IMG/VR virus record: IMGVR_UViG_3300005253_000562
Coordinates: 1 to 47,987 of that record
Length of the DNA stretch: 47,987 nt
Strand: one strand, 5' to 3'
Origin: a virus
Part shown: piece by piece, positions 6,921 to 39,923 of the stretch
Position numbering within the stretch: the first letter of the stretch is position 1
How the letters are laid out: each line of letters begins with the position of its first letter
Notes under the pieces: model-generated
What the model was told of the DNA's origin: nothing
Databases searched by the model: none
Seen by the model: only the letters and a program-made list of their open reading frames with translations
Position numbers and translations under genes: made by a program

Positions 6921-6925
6921 GCAAA

Positions 6926-9813: not shown

Positions 9814-9839
9814 GCCCCTACGGTGTAAGCCAGGGGGGC
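9814..9839 (+). promoter_or_regulatory. GC-rich hairpin in the 120-bp gap before the next GT gene
   Basis: GCCCCT at 9814-9819 can pair with the AGGGG-containing stretch at 9832-9839, closing a 12-nt loop, just upstream of the ATGs at 9846/9849. There is no T-run, so it does not look like a terminator. It may control translation of the next gene. No promoter match was seen in 9726-9845. Confidence 0.35.
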
Positions 9840-9845
9840 AAAATA

Positions 9846-11504: not shown

Positions 11505-11561
11505 ACATTTTTTGTACCCAAAAACTTTTTTAATTAAAATAATATGTATTTTTTTGTTGTC
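11505..11561 (+). promoter_or_regulatory. 57-bp repeated late-operon element, copy 1
   Basis: Positions 11505-11544 are identical over 40 bp to 27786-27825, and the next 17 bp match at 13 positions, including TTTTTGTTGTC. The core is an inverted repeat, TTTTTG-TACC-CAAAAA, followed by a TTTTAATTAAAA palindrome. The right end, TTTTTTTG, is one base from the Bacteroidota -7 box TAnnTTTG, but no TTTG lies at the usual upstream distance. It precedes the tail sheath gene by about 50 bp. A regulated late promoter/operator is the likeliest role. Confidence 0.75.
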
Positions 11562-11608
11562 TATTAAACCCAATCACAAAATACCGCTAATTAAAAAATA
11601 ATAGATAT

Positions 11609-13123
11609 ATGGCTTCAGATGCAGTAGGTTCGGAAAGAATATCAAGAATTGTAGGATGGAAAATTGTCAAAGGTGATTTCGCTGAAGATACACCAAATTT
11701 ACCTCAGCGAATTGCAATTTTAGCAGAAGCCAATACTGCAGAACAAGCAACCTTAGATCTTGCTGCAAAAGAAATGACATCTGCACAACAGGGCGGTATT
11801 TCATATGGTTTTGGCTCTCCTATTTATCATATCTTAAGAATTTTATATCCATTAGGTGGCGGTGGAATTGGAGGTATACCTACAGTTGTTTATCCACAAG
11901 CTGTTGCTGCCGGTGCTGCTGCAAAAGTCCTAACCGTTACCCCTGTTGGAACTGCTACAGGAAATGGAACACACACTTTGAAAATTTCAGGACGAAACGG
12001 AATTGATGGATTATTTTATGATATTAATATATTAAAAGATGATACAACCGCAGATATTACAGCTAAAATATCAGATGCAATAAATGCGGTAACAGGCTCT
12101 CCGGTAACAGCAACCAATACAGATTACGAAGCAACACTTACAAGCAAATGGAAAGGATTAACCGCTAATGATATTTCAGTAACCGTTGATACCAATGATA
12201 ATGACTTAGGTATTACCTACGCAGTTGTTTCTATTCAATCTGGCTCAGCAACACCAAGCATTTCTGCTGCATTAGATTTATTTGGTACTAACTGGAATAC
12301 TATTGTAATTAATAGTTATGGAACAGTTACCAGCATATTAGATACCTTAGAAGATTTTAACGGCATTCCCGATCCTAATAACCCTACAGGTAGATATGCA
12401 GGAATTATAATGAAGCCATTTATAGCCCTTACCGGTTCTGTTGCAGATGATCCTTCAAGTGTTACAGATGGTAGAAAAGATGAAGTTACAATAGCTATAT
12501 GTCCGGCTCCCTTAAGTGCCGGATTACCTTTTGAAGCAAGTGCTAATATGTCATTACTATTTGGACGACAGGCACAAGATAACCCACATTTAGACGTAGC
12601 AGGTCGATCTTATGTAGATATGCCTACACCACTCATAATAGGTTCTATGGCTGTTTATGACAATAGAGATGCTATTGTTAAAAAGGGATCTTCTACTGTT
12701 GACCTGGTTAATGAAAAATATCAGATAGAGGATTTTGTTACTACTTATCATCCAGTGGGCGAAACGCCTCCACAATTTAGATATTCAAGGAACCTAATGA
12801 TAGACTTCAATGTTAGATTTGGATATTTTTTACTCGAGCTTATAAATGTTGTAGATCATGCAATAGCAGCAGATGATGATACCGTTTCTGCACAAAATAT
12901 TATTAAGCCTAAACAATGGAAACAAATAATTGATAAATATGCAGAATCCCTTTCAGTTAAGGCATTAATTGTTGATCCTGCATTTATGCAAGATTCTATT
13001 ACCGTTGTAATCAGTACAACTAATCCCGATAGATTAGAAACATTTTTCCGATATAAAAGAAGTGGATTTACAAGGATAGCAAGTACAACCGCAGAAGCCG
13101 GATTTAATTTTGGAACTATTTAA
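11609..13123 (+). CDS. Tail sheath protein, Mu gpL-like
   Basis: The contractile sheath subunit, 504 aa, close to the Mu gpL size. Typical features are an N-terminal arm, a variable surface domain at about residues 100-215, a central block RKDEVTIAICPAPLS and a C-terminal domain with the DRLETFFRYKRSGFTRIA beta region. It is first in the tail operon and followed 9 nt later by the tube gene, as in contractile phages. Confidence 0.9.
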   Translation: MASDAVGSERISRIVGWKIVKGDFAEDTPNLPQRIAILAEANTAEQATLDLAAKEMTSAQQGGISYGFGSPIYHILRILYPLGGGGIGGIPTVVYPQAVAAGAAAKVLTVTPVGTATGNGTHTLKISGRNGIDGLFYDINILKDDTTADITAKISDAINAVTGSPVTATNTDYEATLTSKWKGLTANDISVTVDTNDNDLGITYAVVSIQSGSATPSISAALDLFGTNWNTIVINSYGTVTSILDTLEDFNGIPDPNNPTGRYAGIIMKPFIALTGSVADDPSSVTDGRKDEVTIAICPAPLSAGLPFEASANMSLLFGRQAQDNPHLDVAGRSYVDMPTPLIIGSMAVYDNRDAIVKKGSSTVDLVNEKYQIEDFVTTYHPVGETPPQFRYSRNLMIDFNVRFGYFLLELINVVDHAIAADDDTVSAQNIIKPKQWKQIIDKYAESLSVKALIVDPAFMQDSITVVISTTNPDRLETFFRYKRSGFTRIASTTAEAGFNFGTI

Positions 13124-13132
13124 AATAATACT

Positions 13133-13543
13133 ATGGCAGTAGGAGGAGATATTATAGAAATAACTTTTAATCATCCAACAGTAGGATCAGGTGTCATTTT
13201 ACCAAAGGCAAATGAGGATTCCACTTATGATCTAGGTGGATTTCGTTCTAATGATGATGCTAACATGGTAGCGGGGAATGGAGAAATGATAGATCAAATG
13301 AATCGTGTTAGATGGTTTATTGAACTTGTTATTGCATGGGATATGAATGTAAGGGGTGATTTAGAGAAATTGGTTGAACTTGCCGAGTCTCCAGTTGAGG
13401 CAGAATGGACAATTACTAATATCAATGGAACTGTTTATGGCGGAACGGGTAAGCCCGTAGGAGATATGCAAGGCAATGGTAATGCAGCTACATTTACTTT
13501 GAAAGTATCCGGTGGTAATAAACTAAAAAAGATAGTTGGATAA
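13133..13543 (+). CDS. Tail tube protein
   Basis: A 136-residue beta-rich protein directly after the sheath, the position of the Mu gpM tube protein. It has short strands and a glycine-rich C-terminus (GKPVGDMQGNGNAATFTLKV) resembling the beta-strand close of tube subunits. The assignment is by position, size and composition. Confidence 0.78.
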   Translation: MAVGGDIIEITFNHPTVGSGVILPKANEDSTYDLGGFRSNDDANMVAGNGEMIDQMNRVRWFIELVIAWDMNVRGDLEKLVELAESPVEAEWTITNINGTVYGGTGKPVGDMQGNGNAATFTLKVSGGNKLKKIVG

Positions 13544-13544
13544 T

Positions 13545-13949
13545 ATGAAACAAAAAGTGCAACTTGAACAAGCCGTTGAAGAAATTGATGGCTGGTTAGA
13601 CAGAAAAAAAATATTCCCCTCAGCCCGGGAAGAATTAAAAGATGCAATAGAAATTCTCGTAGAAGCCATTTCTTTGGGTTATTTGTCTTTGAATGACAAA
13701 GGGGAATTTAAACAAGAGCTTTTATTCCCATTAAAAGAAGAACAGGCACTAACTCATCTTGATTATAAGTCGAGATTAAATGATAGAATGTTAGAGCCCC
13801 ATTTAAAAGGAGTAAAAGCAGGCAATGGTGATGCTCGTATAGTTGCTTATCTGGCTTGCCTCACAGGTCAGGCAAAGGGAATAATAAAAGCCCTTGATAC
13901 TGCAGATAGAAAAATTACAAATGCTATCGTAATTTTTTTTGTAAGTTAG
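13545..13949 (+). CDS. Tail assembly chaperone, zero-frame product
   Basis: An acidic helical protein of 134 aa between tube and tape-measure genes, the standard place for the gpG/gpGT-type chaperone. The ATG at 13545 gives MKQKVQLEQAVEEIDGWL. Eight T residues at 13933-13940, read ATT TTT TTT GTA, form a T TTT TTT slippery site ten bases before the TAG. A -1 slip gives a longer product through 14107. The short and long forms are probably both made and coat the tape measure during tail assembly. Confidence 0.82.
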   Translation: MKQKVQLEQAVEEIDGWLDRKKIFPSAREELKDAIEILVEAISLGYLSLNDKGEFKQELLFPLKEEQALTHLDYKSRLNDRMLEPHLKGVKAGNGDARIVAYLACLTGQAKGIIKALDTADRKITNAIVIFFVS

Positions 13950-14110
13950 ATGCAGAATCTATCGACAACATGATCAAATCTGTTGTCAGGGAACACCACT
14001 GGCCTCCGTACATAATCAAAGAGCTTTATTTAGATAACGAAGATTACCAGGGATTAGAATACTGGTATGATGATGTTATAGCAACTATCAAAGATTTAAA
14101 GAAAAGATAA
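13940..14110 (+). CDS. -1 frame extension of the tail assembly chaperone
   Basis: After a -1 slip at the T-run, reading continues TGT AAG TTA GAT GCA through 56 sense codons to the TAA at 14108-14110. The peptide begins CKLDAESIDNMIKSVV and contains HHWPPYIIKELYLDN and YWYDDVIATIKDLKKR. There is no good independent start. The stop shares a base with the tape-measure ATG (TAATG). The fused product would be about 188 aa. Confidence 0.78.
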   Translation, partial: CKLDAESIDNMIKSVVREHHWPPYIIKELYLDNEDYQGLEYWYDDVIATIKDLKKR

Positions 14111-15927
14111 TGGCTTTTAATTTATTTACAAAATTTACGGCAGTTGATAAGTTCTCTAAGGTTACCCGGGTCATGTCAAAAAGTGTTAAATCTTTTGCTG
14201 TAAAAGCAGAGATAGCAGTAGCAAGGGCAGACAGAGCTTTTACAAGGTTAACTTCTCCAATAAGGAGAGTTTCAAGAGCTTTAGGCAGTTTCGGATTAAT
14301 CTTAGGAGCAACGGCAATAATAGGCGTTGTTGGCAATGCTGTAAGCGTTTTTGCAAATTTTGAACAAGCAAATGCGAACCTGGCTTCTGTGATGGCAACA
14401 GCCACAGGTCCCGAATTAATATCATTACAGGCTGATGCTAAACGGCTTGGTGCTATTACAGCCAAGACCGCAACAGAAGTAGTCGGATTACAGGAAGCTT
14501 TTGCACGTCTTGGATTTGAAACTCCCGATATTATAAATATGACCGAAGCAACCATATCGGGCTCAATTGCTATGAGGGGGGAGCTTTCCGATACTGCAGA
14601 ATTGGTTGGTGCAATGATAAAAACATTTGATGACTTTTCTGCAATTGATACACCTGAAATTATAGATCAATTGACGGTTGCTACTCAAAGTTCTGCTTTG
14701 AACTTTGAAAAGTTACAAACCGGACTACCAATAGTAGCTGGAGCAGCGAATGCAGCGGGCGTTCCATTTACAAGATTAGTAGCTTTATTAGGAAAATTAT
14801 CTGATGCAGGAATAGATACCTCCTCCTCTGCAACGGCACTTAGAAATATATTTATAGAAAGTGCAAAACAGGGATTATCTTATTCTCAAATCCTTAGTAA
14901 AATTGAAAAAAATCAGGATAAATTAACTGCAGCAAATGATGAATTTGGCAAAAGGGCAGCCGTATCAGCTGCTATCTTATCAAAAAGCATAAGAGCAACT
15001 GATGAACTTGATGAAAAATTAAGAAGTGCAGCTAAAGGGCATGAGCTTTCAGGAGCAGCTGCATTAGCAGCAACAAAACAACTTAATACTTTACGTGGAG
15101 CAAGTATTCTTCTTAATAGTGCCTGGGAAGGCTGGATTTTATCATTGGAAGATGGAACAGGGGCTTTAGCTAATACTTTAAAAAGAATTACTCAGGTAGC
15201 AACAGAAATGTTAAGTCTGGCAAGTGGGACGGCAAAGGCATCCGATAAATTGAATGAACAGGAAAAAAGAACAAGGGCGCTGGCTCAAAGAGGGATATTT
15301 TGGTTAAAAGTAATAGGAGTTACCATACTTGGATTACTTGCTTTAAAAGCAATATTGGTAACGGCAAGCATTGTTATGGGAACATGGGCGCTGGGAGTGA
15401 AATTAGTAACGGGTGCTACATTGCTTTGGAATGCAGTATTGGCAGCAAATCCAATTGTGCTTATCATTTTAGGAATATTGGCACTAATAGCTGCGATAAC
15501 GTTATTAATTGTATTTTGGGATGAAATTGGCGTTGCCTGGGAGCAACAGTGGCTTTTAATGCGGGTTACTGCCAAACAAGCAATAAATGATATAAAATCT
15601 GCATGGCAAACACTTTTAGGATTATTTGGTGCGGAGGTTGATTTGACACCTGCCTTTAAATTTTCAAAAAAAGAGCAAGCTGCCGCTAGAGCCTTCTTAG
15701 GTGAGGATGATATTAATGTAACTGATGAAAGTGGAAAGCCAGTACCAAAAGCTGCGGTTAATCCTAAAGCAGCAGAACAGGAAGCTTTAACAAAAACAAT
15801 AGAATCTTTTGGTAATGCAAAAATTAATATAGATGTTAATGATCCTAACCAAAGAACCAAAGTAACTTCCGATAGTGATATTGTAGAGATAGCAACGACT
15901 TCTACTTTAGGATTAGTTGGACAATAA
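14110..15927 (+). CDS. Tail tape measure protein (TP901-like core)
   Basis: A 605-residue tail-length and ejection protein. The TP901-type core shows as repeated hydrophobic helices, including AKRLGAITAKTATEVVGLQE and LLGKLSDAGIDTSSSATALR. Two or three long membrane-like segments lie at about 395-480 (IGVTILGLLALKAILVTASI, IVLIILGILALIAAITLLIV), as expected for a protein that enters the host membrane. It is short for the class, implying a fairly short tail. Confidence 0.92.
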   Translation: MAFNLFTKFTAVDKFSKVTRVMSKSVKSFAVKAEIAVARADRAFTRLTSPIRRVSRALGSFGLILGATAIIGVVGNAVSVFANFEQANANLASVMATATGPELISLQADAKRLGAITAKTATEVVGLQEAFARLGFETPDIINMTEATISGSIAMRGELSDTAELVGAMIKTFDDFSAIDTPEIIDQLTVATQSSALNFEKLQTGLPIVAGAANAAGVPFTRLVALLGKLSDAGIDTSSSATALRNIFIESAKQGLSYSQILSKIEKNQDKLTAANDEFGKRAAVSAAILSKSIRATDELDEKLRSAAKGHELSGAAALAATKQLNTLRGASILLNSAWEGWILSLEDGTGALANTLKRITQVATEMLSLASGTAKASDKLNEQEKRTRALAQRGIFWLKVIGVTILGLLALKAILVTASIVMGTWALGVKLVTGATLLWNAVLAANPIVLIILGILALIAAITLLIVFWDEIGVAWEQQWLLMRVTAKQAINDIKSAWQTLLGLFGAEVDLTPAFKFSKKEQAAARAFLGEDDINVTDESGKPVPKAAVNPKAAEQEALTKTIESFGNAKINIDVNDPNQRTKVTSDSDIVEIATTSTLGLVGQ

Positions 15928-15928
15928 T

Positions 15929-16405
15929 ATGGATTTAGAAGTAATAGAATCAGGAAATGGCGGAGATTTAGTCTTAAAAGGAAATGACTTGTCTTTTATA
16001 TTTGGCTTTCAAAATATGCCTTATCTGGCTCTTTTTGGAGGTAATGTAAAAGCTTCCACTCCTGTAGAACGGATCCCAAGCGAACAGGCTTTTGATTGGT
16101 GGGGCAATAGTTTACTTCCTAATAAACCAGAAGTGCAATTTAATTCCTTAACGGAAAGGCTCTTAAATAATATAGCTGTAAATAGTGCCGGACGTTTAGA
16201 GATAGAAAATGTAGTAAAAAAAGATTTGGAATTTATGGATGCTTTTGCTAACGTATCTGTAGATGTTTCTATTGTCTCTACGGACAGAGTTCGTATTTTA
16301 GTTACAATTTTAGAACCGGAAAACTTAGTGGCTAAAGAATTTCAATTTATATGGGATTTTACTAACCAAGAAATAATTACTGATGATAACAATTCCAACA
16401 CTTAG
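15929..16405 (+). CDS. Baseplate protein, Mu gp46-like
   Basis: A wedge-type baseplate protein of 158 aa. I use the ATG at 15929. The blocks GNGGDLVLKGNDLS and DRVRILVTILEP resemble the gp46/GP46 family; in Mu, gp46 sits just before the J-like gp47 gene, as here. It overlaps the next gene by 23 nt. Confidence 0.75.
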   Translation: MDLEVIESGNGGDLVLKGNDLSFIFGFQNMPYLALFGGNVKASTPVERIPSEQAFDWWGNSLLPNKPEVQFNSLTERLLNNIAVNSAGRLEIENVVKKDLEFMDAFANVSVDVSIVSTDRVRILVTILEPENLVAKEFQFIWDFTNQEIITDDNNSNT

Positions 16406-17558
16406 CGAATTATTTGAAGATATTTTAGATGATCTGGAAGCGGAATTTAATATAACTATTCCTGGATTTGGAAAAGTATTTTTAATTGCACTGGCAGCCG
16501 TCCAGGCTGCTAAATTAAAGTTATATTATCTAGCCATTGGAAAGTTACAGAAAAACATATTTATAGATACAGCAGACCCGGAGGCATCCGGTGGCACCTT
16601 GGAACGCTTTGGCAGGATTAAACTAGGCAGAAATCCTTTTGCAGCAACAGCCGGTCAATATGTAGTTGCGGTAACTGGAACAGTAGGAGCTTTAATAGAA
16701 GCCAGTACTACCTTTAAAAGCAATGATGATACGGTTAATCCAGGCAAGTTATTTATTTTAGATAATGAATATACACTTGTTGGTTCTGATAGCATAACAT
16801 TAAGAGCTTTAGAAGCGGGTGTAGATAGTAAATTAGAAGTAGGAGAGGAACTTACAGCTACTATTCCAATAGCAGACGTAGATAAAATAGTTACGGTAAC
16901 CAGCGAAGCCATAGCACCATTGGCAGCAGAAGAAATTGAGGTATATAGAACAGTGGGCTTACAGGCTTATCAATTAGAACCACAAGGGGGTGCCGGTTCT
17001 GATTATATAATTTGGGCTGCCGATGCACAAGGAGTTTTAAGATCATATCCTTTTGCTAAATCGGGAGCTACAAGTGAAGTAGATTTATTTATAGAAGCGA
17101 CAATAGCTGATAGTACAGACGGAAAAGGAACGCCATCGGCCCAATTGCTTGCAGATGTAGAGGATGTTGTTGACTTTGACCCCGATGATACCAGGCCTTT
17201 GGATGAACGAGGTCGAAGGCCACTTACGGAAATAGTCAATTATTTACCGGTAACAATAAAGGAAGTAGATATAGAAATTCAGGAATTTGTAGGCTTGACA
17301 CCTGCCCAGGAGACAAGTATTTTTAATGCTATAAAAGCCGTATTAGATGATATAAGGCCTTTTGTTGCATCTGCAGACGTGTTGGCAAATAAGAATGATA
17401 TTATTGATATAAATAAAGTAATTAGTATAATACTTAATGCAGAACCAGGAAGTATTTTTACAACCGTTGATCTTATGATAGATAGTGGTTCTGTTAACAG
17501 TTTTACTTTTGATTTAGGGAATATTCCTCATCTTAACAGTGTTACATATTATGGATAA
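16383..17558 (+). CDS. Baseplate J-like protein (Mu gp47)
   Basis: A 391-residue baseplate wedge protein. The N-terminus (LFEDILDDLEAEF), the early ASGGTLERFGRIKLGR block, the middle GGAGSDYIIWAADAQGV and the C-terminal helix-strand region fit the Baseplate_J family. It is followed by a homing-type endonuclease gene wedged between it and the gp48-like gene, which normally follows directly. Confidence 0.88.
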   Translation: MITIPTLSELFEDILDDLEAEFNITIPGFGKVFLIALAAVQAAKLKLYYLAIGKLQKNIFIDTADPEASGGTLERFGRIKLGRNPFAATAGQYVVAVTGTVGALIEASTTFKSNDDTVNPGKLFILDNEYTLVGSDSITLRALEAGVDSKLEVGEELTATIPIADVDKIVTVTSEAIAPLAAEEIEVYRTVGLQAYQLEPQGGAGSDYIIWAADAQGVLRSYPFAKSGATSEVDLFIEATIADSTDGKGTPSAQLLADVEDVVDFDPDDTRPLDERGRRPLTEIVNYLPVTIKEVDIEIQEFVGLTPAQETSIFNAIKAVLDDIRPFVASADVLANKNDIIDINKVISIILNAEPGSIFTTVDLMIDSGSVNSFTFDLGNIPHLNSVTYYG

Positions 17559-18105: not shown

Positions 18106-18111
18106 AATAAA

Positions 18112-19689
18112 ATGACAACCTTAACCAAAATAAAGAAATTAGGAAAAACCCTTTATCCAACCGGCAGGGCTTTTAAGATACCATTTGGAGGCGTTTTGGA
18201 TAAATTAAATTCAGCACTTTCAGAAAGTGAACAAAGAGCTTTTGATGATGCTGTTAGTATTTTAGATAGTGCGTTGCCTGATAATGACAACTTTACAACC
18301 GGTGATGCTACGGATTGGGAAAGGCGTTTGGGATTAATAACTAATCCTGCCGTTCCTTTATCGGATAGAAAATTAGCTATTATAAGAAAAATAAGACACC
18401 CGGGAAACATTCCGGCACGTCAAAATTTCTTATATTTGCAGGGGCAACTTCAGGATGCGGGATTTAATGTTTTTGTTTTTGAAAACCGGTTCCCAACTTA
18501 TGCTGATGGTATCCCATGGACTGCACGTTCAGCAGCAGAAGCTAATTCGTGGATAGATGTAACATTTGGAAATGGTTTATTTGTAGCTATATCGGATAAC
18601 GGCGGGAACCAGGTAATGACAAGCCCCAATGGCATTACATGGACTGCACAAGCAGCAGCAGAAGCTAATACTTGGCGGGATGTAACATTTGGAAATGGTT
18701 TATTTGTAGCAGTATCAAGTGATGGCGGGAACCGGGTAATGACAAGTCCTGATGGCATCACGTGGACTGCACGAGTAGCAGCAGAAGCTAATATTTGGCT
18801 ATCCGTAACTTTCGGAAACGGTTTATTTGTAGCGGTATCTCAAGACGGCACATTCCGGGTAATGACAAGTCCTGATGGCATTACATGGACTGCAAGATCA
18901 GCAGCAGAAGCTAATATTTGGCTATCCGTAACTTTCGGAAATGGACTATTTGTTGCTGTATCATTTGATGGCATAAATCAGGTAATGACAAGCCCTGATG
19001 GCATCACGTGGACTGCACAATTAGCAGCAGAAGCTAATATTTGGCGATCCATAACTTTCGGAAATGGATTATTTGTAGCGGTATCTCAAGACGGCACCAA
19101 CCGGGTAATGACTTCTCCGGATGGTATCATATGGACCGCAAGATTAGCAGCAGAAGCTAATTCGTGGATAGATGTAACATTTGGAAATGGTTTATTTGTA
19201 GCTATATCATTTGACGGCACGAACCGGGTAATGACAAGCCCTGATGGCATTACGTGGACTGTAGAATCAGCATCAGAAGCTAATCAATGGCTATCTGTAA
19301 CCTTTGGAAACGATTTATTTGTGGCTGTATCACAAAATGGCACGAACCGGGTAATGACAAGCCCTAATGTCTTTAAAACAAAGACAGCATTTGACGTAGC
19401 CTCATTGGCTGGTACTGATGTAGCTGTTCATGGAGGCATTGAACATGGAGAAATGGAACATATGCAAATAGGTGAGCAGGGAATAACTCTGATAGCTAAT
19501 TTTATTGATGAAGATAAAGATATTGGCTTTGATACCGGAGCAACTTTACGAAGCACCTTTTTTGTGGGGGCTAACCCTGTTGGTGCTTTTGCAAATGTTT
19601 TAAAAGCACGTGAAGATGAATTTAGGCAACTTATTTTAAAAATCAAACCTGTTTCATCGATAGGATTTTTATTTATTAACTTTAATTAA
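18112..19689 (+). CDS. gp48-like baseplate protein with an inserted seven-repeat propeller array
   Basis: A 525-residue protein. Residues 1-127 match the gp48/DUF2313 baseplate-to-fiber connector (LYPTGRAFKIPFGG, DWERRLGLI, IIRKIRHPGNIPARQNF), and the C-terminal about 105 residues resume that fold. Between them are seven tandem 41-aa repeats, each W-T-A-R-x-A-A-E-A-N-x-W then VTFGNGLFVAVS, then VMTSPDGIT. Seven units of this kind suggest a seven-bladed beta-propeller placed on the baseplate, perhaps for receptor or glycan binding. A related array sits in the next gene. Confidence 0.85.
   Translation: MTTLTKIKKLGKTLYPTGRAFKIPFGGVLDKLNSALSESEQRAFDDAVSILDSALPDNDNFTTGDATDWERRLGLITNPAVPLSDRKLAIIRKIRHPGNIPARQNFLYLQGQLQDAGFNVFVFENRFPTYADGIPWTARSAAEANSWIDVTFGNGLFVAISDNGGNQVMTSPNGITWTAQAAAEANTWRDVTFGNGLFVAVSSDGGNRVMTSPDGITWTARVAAEANIWLSVTFGNGLFVAVSQDGTFRVMTSPDGITWTARSAAEANIWLSVTFGNGLFVAVSFDGINQVMTSPDGITWTAQLAAEANIWRSITFGNGLFVAVSQDGTNRVMTSPDGIIWTARLAAEANSWIDVTFGNGLFVAISFDGTNRVMTSPDGITWTVESASEANQWLSVTFGNDLFVAVSQNGTNRVMTSPNVFKTKTAFDVASLAGTDVAVHGGIEHGEMEHMQIGEQGITLIANFIDEDKDIGFDTGATLRSTFFVGANPVGAFANVLKAREDEFRQLILKIKPVSSIGFLFINFN
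18517..19368 (+). repeat. Seven tandem 123-bp repeats encoding propeller-like blades
   Basis: Seven copies of a 123-bp unit (41 codons), the last slightly short. Phrases such as GTAATGACAAGCCCTGATGG recur almost unchanged, so the copies are recent or homogenised by recombination. The array lies inside the coding frame of the gp48-like gene. Confidence 0.93.
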
Positions 19690-19701
19690 AAAACAAAAAC
19701 A

Positions 19702-20808
19702 ATGGCACGAATTTTAAAGAATAAACCAAATGTACAAGCACCAAATAGTGAATTTCCTTTTGGGAGAATCAAGGATGTAGTACCAAGCGTATCACCTGGT
19801 ACGCCTGTTGATGAAGAAGTTTATGGAGATTCTCACCAATTTATGGAAAAAGGTGCTGAATTATTAATTAAAACATTTAATGATTTACCCGAAAGTGCAA
19901 AAAATGGATTTGAGTTTATGGATGTTTTGCTCGAGCTGATCATAAAAAGAATTAATACACAATTTATTGCAGAATCAGCAGCAGAGGCTACTATTTGGCA
20001 ATCCGTAACTTTCGGAAATGGACTATTTGTAGCAGTAGCTACCATTGGCACGAACCGGGTAATGACAAGCCCTGATGGCATCACCTGGACATCAAGATCA
20101 GCAGCAGAGGCTAATATATGGCAATCTGTAACTTTCGGAGATGGATTATTTGTTGCCGTATCTACTGACGGCACCAACAGGGTAATGACATCGCCAGACG
20201 GTGAGACCTGGACGGCACGAGCAGCTTCAACAGCATCCACATGGCAAGCTGTAACCTTCGGAAATGGATTATTTGTAGCTGTTTCAGGGGCTGGATTAGT
20301 AATGACAAGTCCTGATGGCATCACATGGACTGATAGAACAGAAGCAGAAGCGAATAATTGGCAATCCGTAACTTTCGGAAATAGTTTATTTGTAGCAGTA
20401 TCAGTTGATGGCACCAATCGGGTAATGACAAGTCCTGATGGCATCACCTGGACATCAAGATCAGCAGCAGAGGCGAATTTATGGCAAGCCGTAACTTTCG
20501 GAAATGATTTATTTGTAGCAGTATCAAGTGATGGCACCAATCAAGTAATGACAAGTCCTGATGGCATCACCTGGACGGCAAGATCAGAAGCAGAGGCGAA
20601 TTTATGGCAAGCCGTAACTTTCGGAAATGGACTATTTGTAGCAGTATCAGTTGATGGCACCAATCGAGTAATGACAAGTCCTGATGGCATCACCTGGACG
20701 GCAAAATTAGCAGCAGAAGCAAATATTTGGTCAGAAATAACTTATGGAAATGGATTATATATTGCGGTAGCAAATGATGGCACGAACCGGGTAATGCGAG
20801 CTATATAA
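19702..20808 (+). CDS. Tail fiber-like protein with seven-repeat propeller array
   Basis: A 368-residue protein. The first 87 residues look like a short fiber attachment domain (ARILKNKPNVQAPNSEFPFG). The rest is seven repeats of the same W-T-x-R ... VTFGNGLFVAVS ... VMTSPDGIT unit as the previous gene; repeat 3 lacks three residues. The chain ends straight after repeat 7, so strand exchange between the first (FIAESAAEA) and last units could close a seven-bladed ring. A receptor-binding role is likely but inferred. Confidence 0.8.
   Translation: MARILKNKPNVQAPNSEFPFGRIKDVVPSVSPGTPVDEEVYGDSHQFMEKGAELLIKTFNDLPESAKNGFEFMDVLLELIIKRINTQFIAESAAEATIWQSVTFGNGLFVAVATIGTNRVMTSPDGITWTSRSAAEANIWQSVTFGDGLFVAVSTDGTNRVMTSPDGETWTARAASTASTWQAVTFGNGLFVAVSGAGLVMTSPDGITWTDRTEAEANNWQSVTFGNSLFVAVSVDGTNRVMTSPDGITWTSRSAAEANLWQAVTFGNDLFVAVSSDGTNQVMTSPDGITWTARSEAEANLWQAVTFGNGLFVAVSVDGTNRVMTSPDGITWTAKLAAEANIWSEITYGNGLYIAVANDGTNRVMRAI
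19963..20805 (+). repeat. Seven tandem repeats, second propeller-like array
   Basis: Seven repeats of about 123 bp that encode the same blade consensus as 18517-19368, with GTAATGACAAGTCCTGATGG recurring. Unit 3 has a 9-bp deletion. The two arrays lie 594 bp apart in the same orientation and can recombine with each other. Confidence 0.92.
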
Positions 20809-21563
20809 TGGCAATCTTAAATGTAAATACCGATGAAGTAGTCAGATATTCTAATAAGCTTGAAAAGCTACATAGATCGGCTTTTCCTATTGCTATTCGT
20901 GGAACTTTAAATAATGCTGCTTTTGATGTAAAACAAAAGACAATGCCTGTCAGTGCTGAGAAGGAATTTGTAAATAGACAACCTAATTTTTTCAAGGCAA
21001 ATAGCAAGGTTAATATGGCTAAAGGGTTCAATGTTAGGACCATGCAAGCTGAGATTGGCTTTACAACGGACAAATTAAAAGGAAGCAATCAGGCGGTTGA
21101 AGACTTAGAACAACAGGAACATGGAGGAATAATTAAAGGAAGAACATTTATTCCAAACCGAACAGGGGTAAAAGCTGCAACTGCATTTAATAAAAATGTT
21201 AAGAGGACAAATAGGGTAACCAGCATTTTAGCTCAAAAACGAATTAAATTAAGAAAACAAAAGGGCAGTAATTGGGCACAAAGAGCTATAAAAGCATCTA
21301 TAAAGGCAGGAGTAGGCGGTTTGGTACAGGATTGGAAACCAGGAAGGGGAGGACTTGTATGGAGAGTTAAATCAATAAAAAGAATTGGACTTAATATTAG
21401 GTTTGAAAGGGTAGATTTGCTTTATATAAATAAGTCCGGGAATGTAAGAATAAAAACAGCTACAGGTTTTATGAAAAAAGCAACCTTAAAAACCGCTAAA
21501 AAGCTGGAAGGATTTTATATAAAACAAGCTAAAAAGCAGATAGAAAAGGCATTATTAAAATGA
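20808..21563 (+). CDS. Basic structural protein, unknown tail component
   Basis: A 251-residue, strongly basic protein (many K and R in NVKRTNRVTSILAQKRIKLR and the C-terminal KKATLKTAKKLEG region). It starts on a TAATG overlap with the fiber gene and ends on an ATGA overlap with the gpN-like gene, so it belongs to the tail operon. Size and composition recall minor tail or tail-completion proteins, but I see no decisive motif. Confidence 0.6.
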   Translation: MAILNVNTDEVVRYSNKLEKLHRSAFPIAIRGTLNNAAFDVKQKTMPVSAEKEFVNRQPNFFKANSKVNMAKGFNVRTMQAEIGFTTDKLKGSNQAVEDLEQQEHGGIIKGRTFIPNRTGVKAATAFNKNVKRTNRVTSILAQKRIKLRKQKGSNWAQRAIKASIKAGVGGLVQDWKPGRGGLVWRVKSIKRIGLNIRFERVDLLYINKSGNVRIKTATGFMKKATLKTAKKLEGFYIKQAKKQIEKALLK

Positions 21564-22780
21564 GTTGGCTAGATAATATAAAAACTGATTTAGTAATTGA
21601 AACCGGAGACGGTAAGAAATTTACGCCTAACTGGTTAAATGCTTCTAAGGCAAAAGAATATAATATTGCTGAATTTGATTTTCCAGAGATTGCCGGCTCT
21701 TTAATAGATAGAAGGAAACCAAAAGCCAGAAAATATAATCTTGAAATTTATTTTGAAGGAGATGATCATTTAGAGCAATCTAAAGAATTTGAAAAATCAG
21801 CAGATGATCCCAGGGCTTGGACCATATCCCATCCATTCTATGGCAGAATTATAGTACACCCGGTATCTTTAGCTTTTGATAATACCGCGTATAATACTAC
21901 TAAGATCACCGGTATAATAATAGAAACGATAACAGAAGATAATCCCAAGACAACGGTTGCTCCTGCTGAAAAAATAGAAGCCGATAAGGAGGTCCTGGAT
22001 ACTACTTTTGAAGATTCCTTTGCAAATGATGTAATTCCTGATACAGATGATATAAATACTTTGTTAGAAAATATAAAGATTTTTTTTAATACAGGTAAAA
22101 ATATTGCAGCCGAAGCATCTGAAGAATATTTTAATCTTTTCAATGCTGCTAATGCTGCTATATTAAACGCTACAGCGGAACCATTGGCAGCTATAAGGGC
22201 GGCACAAGCCGTTATTAATGCACCGGCGCTTTTTGTACAAAGCGTAAAAGATAGGATAACAGTATTTGTAGAGCAGATAACAAAATTAATTTCCGGGATA
22301 AATGAGATATTAACACCTTCCAATAAAAAGATACATGAAAATAATGTAGGGGTAGCACTATCCGCCATGGCATTGGCAGCATCTAATCCACAGGAGGGAG
22401 ATTACGACAGCAGATCAAAGGTGCTGGAAATAATAGATGAAATAACAATATCTTACAATACTTATTTGGCAGACCTGGATATCCTGCAGACCGATACCGG
22501 GGGCGAAGAGGATAGTTATATTCCTGATGCGAATAGCCTGATAGGATTGAATAACCTAATGAATTTCACATTGTCTAATCTATTTGACATAGCACTGGAG
22601 AGCAAGCAGGAAAGGTCTATTATTTTGGAAGATGATTCAAACATCATTATTTTAGCACACCGGTTTTATGGCTTAGAAGCTGATGATAGCACCATGGATA
22701 GCTTAATGGAAATCAATAATATCGGATTGAATGAAATTTTAAATATCAGAAAAGGAAGAAAAATAATTTATTTAGTATAG
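21560..22780 (+). CDS. Mu gpN-like baseplate/DNA circularization protein with LysM-like end
   Basis: A 406-residue protein. The N-terminus (IETGDGKKFTPNWLNASKAKEYN, then AGSLIDRRKPKARKYNLEIYFEGDDH) fits the DNA_circ_N/gpN family, which is a baseplate component in Mu-type phages. The long helical middle and the last 50 residues (IIILAHRFYGLEADDSTMDS to IRKGRKIIYLV) end like a LysM domain. The gene is complete and its TAG is followed at once by the TnpB element. Confidence 0.75.
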   Translation: MSWLDNIKTDLVIETGDGKKFTPNWLNASKAKEYNIAEFDFPEIAGSLIDRRKPKARKYNLEIYFEGDDHLEQSKEFEKSADDPRAWTISHPFYGRIIVHPVSLAFDNTAYNTTKITGIIIETITEDNPKTTVAPAEKIEADKEVLDTTFEDSFANDVIPDTDDINTLLENIKIFFNTGKNIAAEASEEYFNLFNAANAAILNATAEPLAAIRAAQAVINAPALFVQSVKDRITVFVEQITKLISGINEILTPSNKKIHENNVGVALSAMALAASNPQEGDYDSRSKVLEIIDEITISYNTYLADLDILQTDTGGEEDSYIPDANSLIGLNNLMNFTLSNLFDIALESKQERSIILEDDSNIIILAHRFYGLEADDSTMDSLMEINNIGLNEILNIRKGRKIIYLV

Positions 22781-22800
22781 TGAAATATTTAACATTTATA

Positions 22801-22832
22801 TTTGGTTTTGTTATAATTAATTTATATCTTTG
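22801..22832 (+). promoter_or_regulatory. Bacteroidota-type promoter for tnpB
   Basis: TTTG at 22801-22804, a 20-bp spacer and TATCTTTG at 22825-22832 match the TTTG / TAnnTTTG consensus exactly. The start codon follows only 4 nt after the -7 box, so the mRNA would be leaderless or nearly so. Confidence 0.8.
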
Positions 22833-22836
22833 CGAT

Positions 22837-24018
22837 ATGCTACGTGGATACCGATATAGAATTTATCCTACACAGGAGCAAACAGTGTTTATTAATAAGC
22901 ATTTAGGGTGTGTTCGTTGGTTATATAACTATGCACTTGACAAAAAGATTTCTGCATATCAAAAAGATAAGACGCAGATTAGCAGATTTGATTTACAAGC
23001 AGAATTGCCATCATTAAAAAAGCAAAAAGATACTGAATGGTTGGCAGAAGTAAATGCACAATCATTACAGGCGACTTTGAAAAATTTAGATATGGCATAC
23101 ACCCGATTTTTTAAATATAAAAAAGGATTTCCAAAGTTCAAATCAAAGCATAATAACCGACAATCCTTTCAGATACCAAGTAATAAGCGTGAAATAGATT
23201 GGAACAATCAAACATTAACCATACCTAAAATAAAAGATATTCCAATAGTGTTATCCCGAACTTTTAAGGGACAAATAAAAACAGTAACTATCAGCAAAAC
23301 GCCCACTAATAGATATTTTGCTGGCATATTAGTAGATACTAATATAAAACCCCAAAAGAAAGCAAAGATAAAAGGGGCGACTACGATAGGTATTGATTTG
23401 GGATTAAAACATTTTGCTACATTGAGCAATGGCGAAAAAATTGACAATCCAAGATATTTACGTAATGACTTACAACGATTAAAAGTACTTCAAAGGCGGT
23501 TGAGTAAAAAGGTAAAGGGCAGCAATAACCGTAACAAAGCCCGGCTAAAAGTAGCAATACAATATGAAAGGATAACGAATAAACGCACCGATTTTTTACA
23601 TAAACTCACATATAAATTAACGCATGAGAGCCAAGTGCAGACGATTTGCATTGAGGATTTAGCTGTAAGTAATATGCTTAAAAACCATAAACTTGCACAA
23701 TCAATTTCAGATGTAAGCTGGGGTAAATTCAAAGAATTACTAACTTACAAATGTGATTGGTATGGTAAAAACCTTATTACGATAGGCAGGTTTGAGCCGT
23801 CCAGCAAGTTGTGTTCCTGTGGCGAATTAAATAAAGATTTGACACTTGCAGACAGGACTTGGACTTGCAAGTATTGTGGAACAAAGCATGATAGGGATGT
23901 ACTTGCAGCTAATAATATTAAAAATATGGGTTTGCATCCAAAGAATACAGGGGCGGATAGCTCCAGTGTGCCTGTGGAGTCGCCTGCATTAGCAGGGGCT
24001 ATGAAGCAGGAATGTTAA
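22837..24018 (+). CDS. tnpB: TnpB RNA-guided nuclease (IS605 OrfB family)
   Basis: TnpB is an RNA-guided DNA nuclease that cuts targets matching its omega-RNA guide next to a TAM. The 393-aa protein starts at 22837 (MLRGYRYRIYPTQEQ); the upstream GTG at 22780 would add residues not seen in the family. RuvC residues are intact: D187 in IGIDLGLKHFATL, E273 in IEDLAVSNML and D354 in HDRDVLAANNI. The zinc ribbon has C326, C328, C344 and C347. The 3' end of the gene carries the stem-loops expected of an overlapping omega-RNA. No tnpA is nearby. Confidence 0.95.
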   Translation: MLRGYRYRIYPTQEQTVFINKHLGCVRWLYNYALDKKISAYQKDKTQISRFDLQAELPSLKKQKDTEWLAEVNAQSLQATLKNLDMAYTRFFKYKKGFPKFKSKHNNRQSFQIPSNKREIDWNNQTLTIPKIKDIPIVLSRTFKGQIKTVTISKTPTNRYFAGILVDTNIKPQKKAKIKGATTIGIDLGLKHFATLSNGEKIDNPRYLRNDLQRLKVLQRRLSKKVKGSNNRNKARLKVAIQYERITNKRTDFLHKLTYKLTHESQVQTICIEDLAVSNMLKNHKLAQSISDVSWGKFKELLTYKCDWYGKNLITIGRFEPSSKLCSCGELNKDLTLADRTWTCKYCGTKHDRDVLAANNIKNMGLHPKNTGADSSSVPVESPALAGAMKQEC

Positions 24019-24060
24019 AGCTACCAATAGCTATGACAATGTCAATTTATTTGATATGAT
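23950..24060 (+). ncRNA. Predicted omega-RNA (right-end RNA) overlapping the tnpB 3' end
   Basis: Three short stems stand out: CTCCA/TGGAG (23961-23965 with 23975-23979), CCTGC/GCAGG with an ATTA loop (23983-23996), and AGCTA/TAGCT with a CCAA loop (24019-24032). In this family the guide RNA scaffold overlaps the end of tnpB and the guide is the flanking DNA just beyond the element. Ends are approximate. Confidence 0.55.
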
Positions 24061-25108
24061 ATTAAAGATAAAAAAGAGAAAGTTTGATTTTTTCAATAGC
24101 TTTCAGCTTAACCTAAAGTATGATAGTGTTGCGAGTACATTCTCTTTTAATGCTTATTTTAATCCGGAGAACAAAGATCATAAGGATCTGCTGCATATAG
24201 GACATTTCCATCCTGTTACCGTAGAACATAATGATGAGTTATTAGTAAGTGGCGTTTTGCTTTCAGAAACGTTTAGGCATTCAAGCGTTAAAGAATTAAC
24301 CTCATTAGGCGGGTATTCATTACCCGGTGTTTTAGAAGATTCCCAGATACCAACTTCTATCTATCCTTTACAATCTGATGGGCTTAGTCTCAGAGAGATA
24401 GCACAAAAAATAATACGGCCATTTAATTTAGAGATGGTCATTGATCCTGTTGTTAGAAAAAAAATGAATGCAGTTTATGATACTTCTACTGCTAATGAGT
24501 TACAGCCTATTAAAGCATATCTATCAGAACTTGCATCACAGAAAAATATCATTTTATCACATACACCTGAAGGAAAATTATTATTTACGCAGGCTAATAC
24601 TAAAAAAACTCCAATTATAGATTTTAACATTCCTGAAGGCGGATCTATTCCGGGTACAAGCATGAGCCTTAGTTTTAATGGACAGCGTATGCACAGTCAA
24701 ATAACGGTTTTAAAGCAAGCAGGAATTAGTGGGGGCAATGCAGGAGAAATTACGGTTACTAATCCTTTTGTGCCTTTTACTTTCCGGCCTAAAGTACTTG
24801 TACAAAATTCAGGAGATGATAATGATACCCGGCAAGCTGCAAAAAATGCTTTAGCAAAAGAGCTCCAAAATATAAAACTAAAAATACCTACCGATCGATG
24901 GGAGGTTGATGGGAAAATAATCAAACCTAATAACATTGTATCTGTGATAAATCCTGATATTTTCTTATTTAAAAAAACGAACTGGTTTATAGAATCTATT
25001 AATTTTACCGGGAATGAAAAACGGACAACAGCAGTACTAAACTGTGTCCTACCAGAAGTCTATAATGGAAAAACACCAATAAATATTTTTGAAAATGAAC
25101 TTAGTTAA
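24056..25108 (+). CDS. Mu gpP (gp44)-like baseplate hub protein
   Basis: A 350-residue baseplate hub. The N-terminus MILKIKKRKFDFFNSFQLNLKYDSV and the LEDSQIPTSIYPLQSDGLSLREI block at about 92-115 resemble gp44-type hubs in other Bacteroidota phages. The protein appears intact, so the TnpB insertion upstream has not disrupted it, although it may have changed its leader. Confidence 0.82.
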   Translation: MILKIKKRKFDFFNSFQLNLKYDSVASTFSFNAYFNPENKDHKDLLHIGHFHPVTVEHNDELLVSGVLLSETFRHSSVKELTSLGGYSLPGVLEDSQIPTSIYPLQSDGLSLREIAQKIIRPFNLEMVIDPVVRKKMNAVYDTSTANELQPIKAYLSELASQKNIILSHTPEGKLLFTQANTKKTPIIDFNIPEGGSIPGTSMSLSFNGQRMHSQITVLKQAGISGGNAGEITVTNPFVPFTFRPKVLVQNSGDDNDTRQAAKNALAKELQNIKLKIPTDRWEVDGKIIKPNNIVSVINPDIFLFKKTNWFIESINFTGNEKRTTAVLNCVLPEVYNGKTPINIFENELS

Positions 25109-25622
25109 GATCATATCAACAGAAATAGATGATTTAACTCAACGTGTATCTAAGTTTTTACGTTTTGGGCTTAATGATGTGCAGACAGCCATACAAACTG
25201 CTCCATATGGTATGGATTCAAACCCAATTAAAGGTATGATCGCTGTTTACGGAGCAACATCTGAAAAAGGAAAGCCGGTAATAATAGGATATATCAATAA
25301 AAACCAATTGGCAGATATAGGAGAAGCCAGGATTTTTTCTACTGATGAAAACGGAGTTTTAAAAACATTTATCTGGTTAAAAAATGATGGAATTATCGAA
25401 ATTGGGGGCGATGTTGATAATATGGTAAGATTTTCAGAACTTAAAACTGCCTTTAATGAAATGCAAAGCGATGTTAACACCTTAAAAACTGCTATAAGCG
25501 GATGGACACCAATTCCTAATGATGGAGGAGCAGCCCTTAAAGTAGCTTTAGCTACATGGTTTGCGGCAACCTTAGTAGAAAATATTGATGATTCCAGAAT
25601 TGATCAAATAAAAACATTATGA
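25095..25622 (+). CDS. Baseplate spike/assembly protein, Mu gp45-like
   Basis: A 175-residue protein from the ATG at 25095, overlapping the hub gene by 14 nt. PYGMDSNPIKGMIAVYGATS and ENGVLKTFIWLKNDGIIEIGG (OB-fold and short beta-helix-like strands) fit the gp45/gpV spike family, the membrane-puncturing tip. It lacks an evident HxH iron-binding apex. Confidence 0.78.
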   Translation: MNLVKIISTEIDDLTQRVSKFLRFGLNDVQTAIQTAPYGMDSNPIKGMIAVYGATSEKGKPVIIGYINKNQLADIGEARIFSTDENGVLKTFIWLKNDGIIEIGGDVDNMVRFSELKTAFNEMQSDVNTLKTAISGWTPIPNDGGAALKVALATWFAATLVENIDDSRIDQIKTL

Positions 25623-25717
25623 AATTATTTTTAATAGCATCATTTAGACTAATAAAAGCATTATTTGTGGTACTTTATTTTTTTATAAAGGAAAAAATCT
25701 TTAATATTACAGGATGA
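25619..25717 (+). CDS. 32-residue membrane peptide
   Basis: A very short ORF from the ATG at 25619 to the TGA at 25715-25717. It overlaps the spike-gene stop at its start and the next ATG at its end (ATGA at 25714). The peptide (MKLFLIASFRLIKALFVVLY then FFIKEKIFNITG) is one hydrophobic helix with positive ends. The ATGA overlaps on both sides support real translation. Function unknown. Confidence 0.6.
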   Translation: MKLFLIASFRLIKALFVVLYFFIKEKIFNITG

Positions 25718-26031
25718 TAACTTATGATTCAAGTGATATATTCATTCAAAGTGCAACTACTTTAAAAGCTAAGATAGTTAGGATAGATGCTATCATGGTT
25801 GCCTTAGAAGATACAATGCTGAAAGCTGCCGGAACGGCCAACTTTGATGAATATTTACTTGATGATGGGCAGGTTAGGATTAAAACAATTTATAGAACTA
25901 CAGAAGATGTAATTAAATCTATTAAATCATTAGAAGCCGTAAGGCAAATGTATGTCAACAGGTTAAATGGACGACATATAAGATTAGTTGATGGAAAAAA
26001 CTTTATAGAAAGGAATCATGGTAGGATTTAA
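25714..26031 (+). CDS. Small head-joining protein, possibly gpW-like
   Basis: A 105-residue helical protein just before the portal gene, which it overlaps by 14 nt. ARQMYVNRLNGR-like content (VRQMYVNRLNGRHIRLVDGK) and the position match the gpW-type head-tail joining protein of lambda-like heads. The assignment is mainly positional. Confidence 0.55.
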   Translation: MITYDSSDIFIQSATTLKAKIVRIDAIMVALEDTMLKAAGTANFDEYLLDDGQVRIKTIYRTTEDVIKSIKSLEAVRQMYVNRLNGRHIRLVDGKNFIERNHGRI

Positions 26032-27607
26032 AGATATTTGGAATAATGTAAAAAACAGGTTACCTGTCAATATTTCGTTTGGCAAGGAAAAAATAGTATT
26101 AGCAAGACATTCGGGAGATAATATATCTTATAATAATATCTTTTCCGTTTCTTATGATGGAGACAAAAATCTTGGTGAGATAGGTCCCATTAAAAATTAT
26201 ATTATGGATTATGATGGTCTTAGATTCAGATCATGGCAATCCTATATAGAAAGCGAAATATCTCAAATTGTTTTAAATAAATTCGCCATATGGATAGTAG
26301 GTTCGGGATTAAAGCTCCAGGCAGAACCGGCGAAAAAAGTTCTTGAATCGGAGGGAATAACCCTTGATACAGAGAATTTTAACGATATAGCAGAGGCAAG
26401 ATTTAACGTGTTTGCTAATTCAAAACTAGCGGATTACTCTAATATGGTAAGTTTGAATAGCATAGGAAATACATCTTTTTTAAACTCAATAATAGGTGGG
26501 GACGTTTTAATTGTTTTGAGACTGATAAATAATCAAGTCAAAGTACAATTAATTGATGGAGCACACTTAGTTACACCATTGGGAGACGAAGATTCTAAAG
26601 GCAAGAAAAAGGGCAAAGATAATCGTATTCGTAACGGCATAGAAATATCTCCCAAAGGAGAGCATATTGCCTATTGGGTTAGTACAAAACATTTTAAATT
26701 TGAAAGAATACAAGCAAGGGGGGGTAAATCAGGTTTGAAAATGGCATTTATAGTTTATGGGGGGGAATATAGATTAGATAATGTGCGGGGAATACCGAAA
26801 TTAGCCCCCGTTTTAGAAACATTAAAAAAACTTGAAAGATATAAGGAGGCTACTGTTGGTAGTGCTGAGGAGAGGCAAAAAATAGTTATGCAAATTATAC
26901 ATAAAGAATTCTCAACAGGGGAAAATCCTTTACAGGGACAATTAGCAAAGGCAATTGATTTCGATGCAGTAACAGGTCAAATTCCTACCGATGATGTTGG
27001 CAAGAAACTTGCTGATACCGTTGCAGCTACAACGAATAAATCAACATTTAATATGCCAATAGGTTCAGAATTAAAAGGATTAGAAAGTAAAAATGAACTT
27101 TTTTTCAAAGAATTTTATACAGTTAATATTAATATCGTTTGTGCAGCATTAGGAATACCACCAGAAGTTGCATTAAGCAAATATGATAGTAACTTTTCAG
27201 CTAGCCGGGCAGCTTTAAAGGATTGGGAACATACTATAAATGTACATCGCAAAAGATTTTCAGAACAATTTTATCAACCTATTTATGAATTTTGGCTTGA
27301 GGTTCAAATCTTACAAAACAAGATACAGGCTCCGGGATATTTATTAGCAGATAATGACATGGTGAAAGAATCTTATCAAATTGCCAGATTTATCGGTGCA
27401 AGAGTACCTCATATTGATCCTTTAAAAGAAGTTAATGCAGTAAGGGCAAAGTTAGGAGATTCAGCTAAAGATATTCCATTGACAACGGTAGAACAAGCTA
27501 CGGAGGAATTAAATGGTGGAGATAGCAATTCCAACATCGAACAATATTCTAAGGAACTGGAAAGATCAAAAAAATTAAAGATAGAAACTACTGAACCTTC
27601 AGTCTAA
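26018..27607 (+). CDS. Portal protein, lambda gpB family
   Basis: A 529-residue portal forming the dodecameric DNA gate of the head. Typical lambda-family blocks are the N-terminal YDGLRFRSWQSYIESE, the KFAIWIVGSGLKLQAEP region at about 93-107, and the late FSASRAALKDWEHTI and QFYQPIYEFWLE blocks. The stop overlaps by 4 nt the stop of the minus-strand gene that follows. Confidence 0.92.
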   Translation: MVGFKDIWNNVKNRLPVNISFGKEKIVLARHSGDNISYNNIFSVSYDGDKNLGEIGPIKNYIMDYDGLRFRSWQSYIESEISQIVLNKFAIWIVGSGLKLQAEPAKKVLESEGITLDTENFNDIAEARFNVFANSKLADYSNMVSLNSIGNTSFLNSIIGGDVLIVLRLINNQVKVQLIDGAHLVTPLGDEDSKGKKKGKDNRIRNGIEISPKGEHIAYWVSTKHFKFERIQARGGKSGLKMAFIVYGGEYRLDNVRGIPKLAPVLETLKKLERYKEATVGSAEERQKIVMQIIHKEFSTGENPLQGQLAKAIDFDAVTGQIPTDDVGKKLADTVAATTNKSTFNMPIGSELKGLESKNELFFKEFYTVNINIVCAALGIPPEVALSKYDSNFSASRAALKDWEHTINVHRKRFSEQFYQPIYEFWLEVQILQNKIQAPGYLLADNDMVKESYQIARFIGARVPHIDPLKEVNAVRAKLGDSAKDIPLTTVEQATEELNGGDSNSNIEQYSKELERSKKLKIETTEPSV

Positions 27608-27771
27608 ATCTCATTTTTTTTTAAATATTCCGGTTGAGATTCGCAAAGTTCTCTCAATGCTGGTCTCACCAACGCAGAAAGCGTTATCCCTTTATTTTTT
27701 GCTATTGTTTTTAATAGATCCTTTAATTTTACTGATATTCCTGTGGTTTTGATATATGTTCTATCCAACAT
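27604..27771 (-). CDS. Ribbon-helix-helix-like regulator, the only clear minus-strand gene
   Basis: A 55-residue protein from the ATG at 27771; an earlier ATG at 27789 would lie upstream of the promoter -7 box. The pattern ISVKLKDLLKTIAKNKGITL then SALVRPALREL resembles a beta-strand plus two helices as in CopG/Arc-type DNA-binding proteins. It runs opposite to everything around it, between the portal gene and the head protease gene. Its promoter overlaps the repeated element at 27786-27842, so it may repress itself and the late operons. That regulatory role is inference. Confidence 0.6.
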   Translation of the reverse strand: MLDRTYIKTTGISVKLKDLLKTIAKNKGITLSALVRPALRELCESQPEYLKKNEI

Positions 27772-27775
27772 TTTG

Positions 27776-27803
27776 CAAAGATAATACATTTTTTGTACCC
27801 AAA
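27776..27803 (-). promoter_or_regulatory. Minus-strand promoter of the RHH-like gene
   Basis: On the minus strand TATCTTTG (plus 27776-27783) is a perfect -7 box ending 4 nt before the 27771 start codon. A TTTG (plus 27800-27803) lies 16 bp upstream, a little short for the usual 19-21 bp. That TTTG is one arm of the TTTTTG-N4-CAAAAA inverted repeat. Confidence 0.6.
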
Positions 27804-27842
27804 AACTTTTTTAATTAAAATAATAAATAGATTTTTGTTGTC
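27786..27842 (+). promoter_or_regulatory. 57-bp repeated late-operon element, copy 2
   Basis: The first 40 bp are identical to 11505-11544 and 13 of the next 17 match. The inverted repeat TTTTTG-TACC-CAAAAA lies at 27790-27805. GATTTTTG at 27830-27837 is one base from the -7 consensus. The head protease ATG is at 27845, so a transcript from here would be almost leaderless. The element also overlaps the divergent promoter of the RHH-like gene. Confidence 0.78.
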
Positions 27843-39919: not shown

Positions 39920-39923
39920 CAAA

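Follow-up and report, generated by a model that had tools for sequence, protein, structure and literature searches.

How does a phage whose tail and head genes lie in separate modules come to carry the same short element ahead of both, and what is the role of the small gene that diverges from one of the two copies? The question arises in a linear IMG/VR record of 47,987 nucleotides (IMGVR_UViG_3300005253_000562; its full length is referred to as the window), which represents a phage with a contractile tail and a gpA-type terminase as judged by a Pfam scan. With a probability of roughly 0.7, and on the strength of sequence comparisons alone, we hypothesize that one ribbon-helix-helix (RHH) protein activates the tail sheath and head protease operons together from two operators. 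The group of phages that carries this putative switch is a large one of uncultivated viruses of Bacteroidetes bacteria, and late-gene control in tailed Bacteroidetes phages is little described.

The two copies of the 57-bp element (11505-11561 and 27786-27842, plus strand) are identical at 53 of 57 positions, including an exact run of 40 bp. The repeat, described in a first-pass annotation, is real: when the window was resampled 20 times under a first-order Markov model, the longest exact repeats reached 15-18 bp. The window contains no third copy, and nothing else in it matches the 32-bp core with 3 mismatches or fewer. Copy 1, comprising a putative operator and late promoter, precedes the tail sheath gene, the first of the tail module (11609-13123, plus strand; phrog_165, E 3.7e-76). 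Copy 2 precedes the head maturation protease gene (27845-28819, plus strand; phrog_94, E 2.7e-17), the first of a head module that also contains the major head protein gene (29290-30333, plus strand; phrog_29, E 1e-36), and these profile matches bear out the annotation's assignment of the sheath and protease genes. As had also been stated, each copy contains the inverted repeat TTTTTG-N4-CAAAAA and a terminal near -7 box. The repeat, in both cases TTTTTG-TACC-CAAAAA (11509-11524 and 27790-27805, without strand), is a candidate operator whose frame is unsettled in the window lineage, and the boxes, compared with the consensus TAnnTTTG, read TTTTTTTG in the sheath-operon promoter (11549-11556, plus strand) and GATTTTTG in the protease-operon promoter (27830-27837, plus strand).

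Between the convergent portal gene (26018-27607, plus strand; phrog_21, E 2e-52) and the divergent protease gene lies a lone minus-strand gene (27604-27771) encoding a protein of 55 aa, an arrangement shared with the relatives described below. It is preceded, 4 nt before the ATG, by a perfect -7 box TATCTTTG (27776-27783, minus strand), which falls within a longer 61-aa ORF and thus indicates that the 55-aa start at 27771 is correct. In F. psychrophilum, the -7 box TAnnTTTG was mapped to positions -12 to -5 (PMC9723704), and given this placement the transcript of the 55-aa gene would be leaderless. The claim that copy 2 contains the promoter of this gene holds in part: the expected -33 region is inside the copy, but the -7 box is just outside, with the copy beginning next to it. 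In copy 1 the minus-strand -7 box is lost and no divergent gene is present.

Two strong early-type promoters elsewhere in the window, at 39901-39926 and 40206-40213 (CTTGACATTTGTAAA then TATCTTTG), precede small genes at 39924 (HTH_17-like) and 40241; the former is 88% like the promoter of the 55-aa gene over 26 nt, and a palindrome within it, ACATTTGTAAAATGT, may be an operator for another regulator. An OrfB/TnpB-type gene of an IS605-like element (22780-24018) lies inside the tail module and has its own TTTG-N20-TATCTTTG promoter directly before the ATG. Furthermore, the window contains two arrays of imperfect 123-bp tandem repeats inside neighbouring tail-module genes (18490-20844), a cassette encoding glycosyltransferase, methyltransferase and hexapeptide acyltransferase functions that separates the terminase from the sheath (3235-10484), and three adjoining ORFs (37782-39864), each matching part of DNA methyltransferases and possibly representing one broken or split gene. 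The contig opens with TCGTCGGCAGCGTCAGATGTGTATAAGAGACAG (1-33), which we take to be an Illumina Nextera adapter; as a library artefact, it implies that the left contig end is not a natural genome end.

The divergent gene encodes an Arc/CopG-type RHH protein. Its product matches phrog_582 ('Arc-like repressor', E 9e-4), and a profile built from the window protein and eleven relatives retrieved the RHH protein ORF56 (PDB 2k9i, E 1e-4); Pfam RHH_5 matches were obtained for only 3 of 21 family members, every one weak. An AlphaFold2 model (pLDDT 83) has an extended N-terminus and helices at residues 14-27 and 31-45, although strand pairing is impossible in it as it is a monomer. Foldseek matches of this model include ORF56, CopG and Arc among the best (TM 0.56-0.68, E > 0.1), which on their own would be weak evidence for so short a chain. 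The features expected of the Arc/CopG/MetJ superfamily, an N-terminal strand with two helices and a relation to known RHH families, are present, and the further one that alternate strand residues read bases is met by the covariation reported below, which is statistical and not structural. The RHH-like identity proposed in the first-pass annotation is therefore upheld by the phrog_582 match and by alignment with RHH proteins at the same locus in relatives, found in 58 records in all. In several records (G011, L113, L129, L156, L165, L179, L181 and L185) tandem double RHH domains occupy the same place before the protease. A role as the antitoxin of a toxin-antitoxin system was rejected because no adjoining toxin gene in one operon is present. 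As regards a lysogeny repressor, the search of the window for tyrosine and serine recombinases came up empty, and 5 of 16 records carry a tyrosine recombinase; lifestyle was not used as evidence.

An exact or near-exact DNA search for the element in viral contigs recovered the closest relatives only. The element is present before the sheath gene of G001/L002 (sheath 89% identical), where in L002 a minus-strand gene starts just upstream of it, and before the protease of L039/G025 and L068 (RHH protein 71-74% identical). The first-pass annotation would have been refuted by absence of the element from close relatives that keep the RHH gene; L039/G025 and L068 give the opposite outcome. The copies before the sheath gene of G001 and before the protease gene of L068, on different contigs, are identical to each other at 56 of 57 positions, yet match the window copies at just 32-34 of 57 (ungapped), which suggests that both sites change together.

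The wider family was recognised by comparing the regions upstream of sheath and protease in protein-level relatives. Scans for the sheath, the protease and the head protein, which relied on head-protein and sheath alignments because that of the protease was too diverse, yielded 43 related records with both upstream regions, 33 RHH-bearing and 10 RHH-less; these records are metagenomic and partial. All 33 keep a divergent RHH gene at the protease and most have a matching site before the sheath gene. Local alignment of the two upstream regions in the RHH-bearing records gave a mean score of 33.6, compared with 12.1 under random pairing (5000 permutations, sd 1.0, maximum 16.7), and a record's own partner was the best-matching region in 27 of 33. 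Paired sites are thus alike within a phage and unlike between phages. In the majority of phages the operator is a palindrome whose arms are 7 bp apart, as in GTCCC-N7-GGGAC (G003), GCATC-N7-GATGC (G009), TTCCA-N7-TGGAA (G012), TTCCT-N7-AGGAA (G031), TTCCG-N7-CGGAA (G030) and CTGTA-N7-TACAG (G036); G014/G016, p19872, p20045, p24520b, G026 and G048 do not fit this form. When seven contigs were scanned with their own operators (on one strand, which for palindromes covers both), matches lay before sheath and protease only, apart from an extra one in G015 at 10013 inside the sheath gene.

The presence of the RHH gene follows gene order. In all 33 RHH-bearing records the sheath gene lies 13-20 kb ahead of the protease gene, with tail genes before the portal, whereas 8 of the 10 RHH-less records have the opposite order, with the protease 4-10 kb ahead of the sheath (Fisher 3e-7, indicative only as the records are related). 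An RHH gene divergent to the protease accordingly occurs in 33/33 sheath-first RHH-bearing records and 0/8 protease-first records, meaning that the regulator occurs where tail and head genes sit in separated modules. G005 and G049 are sheath-first without an RHH gene. G005 contains a common 35-bp block (TATTTTTTCATTGGTAAATAACCCATAAAAAAAAC) upstream of both sheath and protease; no RHH gene was found in its 39.5-kb record despite the block at both sites, which is perhaps the site of another regulator.

The operators hold a constant position relative to the late promoters. Measured from the operator centre, a -7-like box (TA, two bases, TTT and then mostly G or A) has its end at +44 on both sides, with z about 5 over 33 protease-side regions and again over 21 sheath-side regions, and the sheath-side result is independent of the start-codon window. 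A T-tract at +12 to +16 from the centre corresponds to the -33 region, and if the -7 box is taken to end at -5, the operator centre falls near -49. Late promoters, whose start sites are predicted, usually match 5 of 6 box positions at +44; in equal windows the perfect TAnnTTTG occurs in 10/54 late but 19/33 RHH promoters (Fisher 3e-4). On the RHH side the distance from operator to -7 box is variable (15-35), and the operator is expected to cover the -33 region of the RHH promoter, assuming usual promoter spacing. Such a geometry is suggestive of a protein that activates the late promoters and represses its own gene, both of which are inferences. The window lineage deviates: its operator is AT-rich and permits two overlapping inverted repeats (TTTTTG-N4-CAAAAA and ACA-N5-TGT), its palindrome is weak, and the spacing from operator to box is 40 in the window and 39 in L068 and G001, versus 44 in most relatives. 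The clearest evidence consequently comes from the relatives, and the exact operator of the window remains uncertain.

If the RHH protein reads these sites, its DNA-contacting residues would be expected to follow their bases. Operators were inferred for each RHH genome from DNA alone (six-base arms with a 7-bp spacer, 44-58 bp before the protease ATG) and compared, over 28 non-redundant genomes, with the strand residues. Half-site base h4 covaries with residue b of the strand (MI 1.00 vs null 0.40, p 2e-4), as does h5 with residue c (MI 1.29 vs null 0.84, p 4e-4), h4 and h5 being the two innermost bases of each half-site; no covariation was detected in these 28 genomes for b-h5, c-h4 or the next residue d. 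Among all 239 column-by-base tests, b-h4 and c-h5 rank 1st and 3rd, and the 2nd is held by the neighbouring residue a, which itself covaries with b. The signals persist (p 5e-5 and 0.002) when the comparison is confined to 27 genomes whose RHH proteins are less than 60% identical, and c-h5 is retained within b=Arg genomes (p 3.5e-4). A scan of 56 DNA positions places the maxima for b at L5 and R5 and those for c at L6 and R6, with a flat spacer. Covariation with both arms and not with the spacer is strong statistical evidence that the RHH protein reads both operators, although the statistics include no explicit model of shared ancestry. The position-limited search seems to mis-pick a few sites (p12940, G051, G006), which should weaken and not create covariation. 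The residue-base pairs are chemically sensible: Arg/Lys goes with C, Glu with G and Asn with T, opposite which the other strand has G, C and A, respectively. In the window lineage, residues a/b/c are Tyr (or Phe)/Lys/Thr. According to PMC3325190 (citing Knight and Sauer, 1989), residues of the N-terminal beta-strand determine the DNA specificity of RHH proteins, and the covariation agrees with this established role.

Taken together, these observations support the two-site layout, its conservation, its fixed geometry and operator recognition by RHH residues, within the limits of comparative statistics. In the proposed mechanism, the 55-aa protein would be a dedicated regulator of both virion-structure operons, made on the opposite strand from a host-type promoter with a perfect TAnnTTTG box. 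A dimer or pair of dimers would insert its beta-ribbon into the palindromic operator, for which no binding data exist, at the two places per genome ahead of the sheath and protease genes. In most relatives the centre of the bound protein would lie some 49 bp ahead of the predicted late start, immediately before the -33 region and a -7 box that is often off consensus, and from there the protein would most likely activate the two late promoters simultaneously. The operator at the protease copy additionally overlaps the RHH promoter in its -33 region, and binding should shut the RHH gene off. The two-operon late switch with a self-regulating protein that the first-pass annotation had envisaged is hence supported by the paired sites and the residue-base covariation; activation rather than repression, late timing and autorepression are all inferred.

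An unlikely reading, albeit one still to be reckoned with, is that the RHH protein keeps its own gene and the two late operons repressed until late infection, the role suggested for SvtR of SIRV1. Repressors make up most of the RHH proteins characterised so far (PMC3325190), which is a point against activation; SvtR represses its own promoter and binds a structural-gene promoter (PMC5569661), and 10 of 54 late -7 boxes are perfect. However, the operator lies upstream of the late core at a fixed +44 in phages with unrelated operators, a constancy expected for contact with RNA polymerase and needless for blocking, and the RHH genes have better -7 boxes than the late operons. That an RHH protein is capable of combining activation with autorepression is indicated by AmrZ (PMC3325190).

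The remaining readings deny the RHH protein its part in late control. Another phage or host protein could use the late-promoter operators, with the RHH protein merely autoregulating at the protease copy. The absence of any binding experiment leaves room for this, as do the two sheath-first records without an RHH gene, one of which (G005) still has the common block; but the sheath site copies the protease site within each phage and changes alongside it, and the site bases track RHH residues, which makes such a protein very improbable. Scarcely tenable is the view that the repeats serve as intrinsic terminators, or that they have no regulatory function and are merely left over from duplication or gene conversion. 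A GC-rich palindrome is followed by a T-run in G003, G006, G009 and G030, and identity extends well past the palindrome in G006 (93-95 bp), G036 and G053. In contrast, no T-run directly follows the palindrome in G007, G011, G012 and G015, the window repeat has a single G-C pair per arm, and terminators would not covary with two RHH residues or hold a -7 box at +44. In G011 and G052 it is mainly the arms that are alike, so the similarity is not kept by long-tract recombination. Activation of both operons by the RHH protein remains our preferred reading.

Beyond this, the chances seem to us evenly balanced that each phage has a private lock-and-key, in which one RHH activator and its two operators shift specificity together by lineage under a simple residue-base code, possibly insulating co-infecting relatives. 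The code proposed from the alignments would, for residue c, relate Arg/Lys to C, Thr/Pro to A, Asn to T, and Glu or Tyr to G. If such a lock-and-key exists, co-infecting relatives would possibly be unable to switch each other's late genes. Since protein and sites changed in step, recognition rules might be read from the sequences: about thirty natural regulator-operator pairs, several of them apart by one or two contact residues, would constitute a natural data set for RHH-DNA recognition, on how specificity shifts while both targets follow and on whether co-infecting phages are insulated. No match to one well-conserved RHH member was found in a collection of 50,697 phages with a single 59-aa tblastn query, which distant members could escape. 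The cultured relatives Flavobacterium phage FCOV-F19 and Cellulophaga phage phiSM have the order portal-protease-head-sheath and no annotated divergent gene before the protease. Our literature search found no paper on this RHH system, nor on late promoters of Flavobacterium phages in connection with the sheath. If confirmed, the protein would be, to our knowledge, without precedent among tailed phages as an RHH activator of late genes, a tiny RHH protein in the role of the P2 zinc finger and of Mu C.

The closest parallels in layout are these two phage activators. As in the present group, P2 Ogr is a small phage protein acting at a dyad-symmetric site upstream of several late promoters, and P2 has separate head and tail operons, one of which begins with sheath genes (PMC3931495, PMC5694545). 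Unlike the RHH protein, Ogr is a C4 zinc finger whose gene is not at a late promoter, and it serves four late promoters, PP, PO, PV and PF, which carry TGT-N12-ACA (PMC3931495, PMC5694545). Membership of the Ogr/Delta family was rejected, as the finger CX2CX22CX4C (PMC3931495) is absent and the 55-aa protein has one cysteine; nor is the P2 site matched by the operators found here (TTCCx-N7, GTCCC-N7, AT-rich and others). P2-like phages have a common site motif, whereas that of the present group varies from phage to phage.

The C protein of Mu belongs to the Mor/C family and is not an RHH protein; neither Pfam nor PHROGs gave a Mor/C match for the window protein and 20 relatives. Like the putative RHH activator, a single C protein serves several late operons from sites just upstream of -35, at promoters with a non-consensus -10 (PMC4461284). 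In Mu, four late promoters (Plys, PI, PP and Pmom) are involved, a 6T stretch being noted in some (PMC4461284), and the C gene is not divergent to a late operon. Reading the window as a Mu-like phage was dropped in view of its gpA-type terminase.

Arc and Mnt of P22 work in the immunity region and not on head or tail operons. They share with the protein described here the RHH fold and specificity set by N-terminal beta-strand residues, as does AmrZ of Pseudomonas, a host protein that activates, represses and autorepresses (PMC3325190). The nearest RHH precedent is SvtR of SIRV1, likewise a small viral RHH protein at its own and a structural-gene promoter; it differs in being a repressor of an archaeal virus with archaeal transcription machinery, with four sites, the strongest about 80 nt upstream of the promoter elements (PMC5569661). 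The operator position in the present group argues for activation of the late promoters rather than SvtR-type repression. The layout itself is known from P2 Ogr and Mu C; what is new is a regulator from another family.
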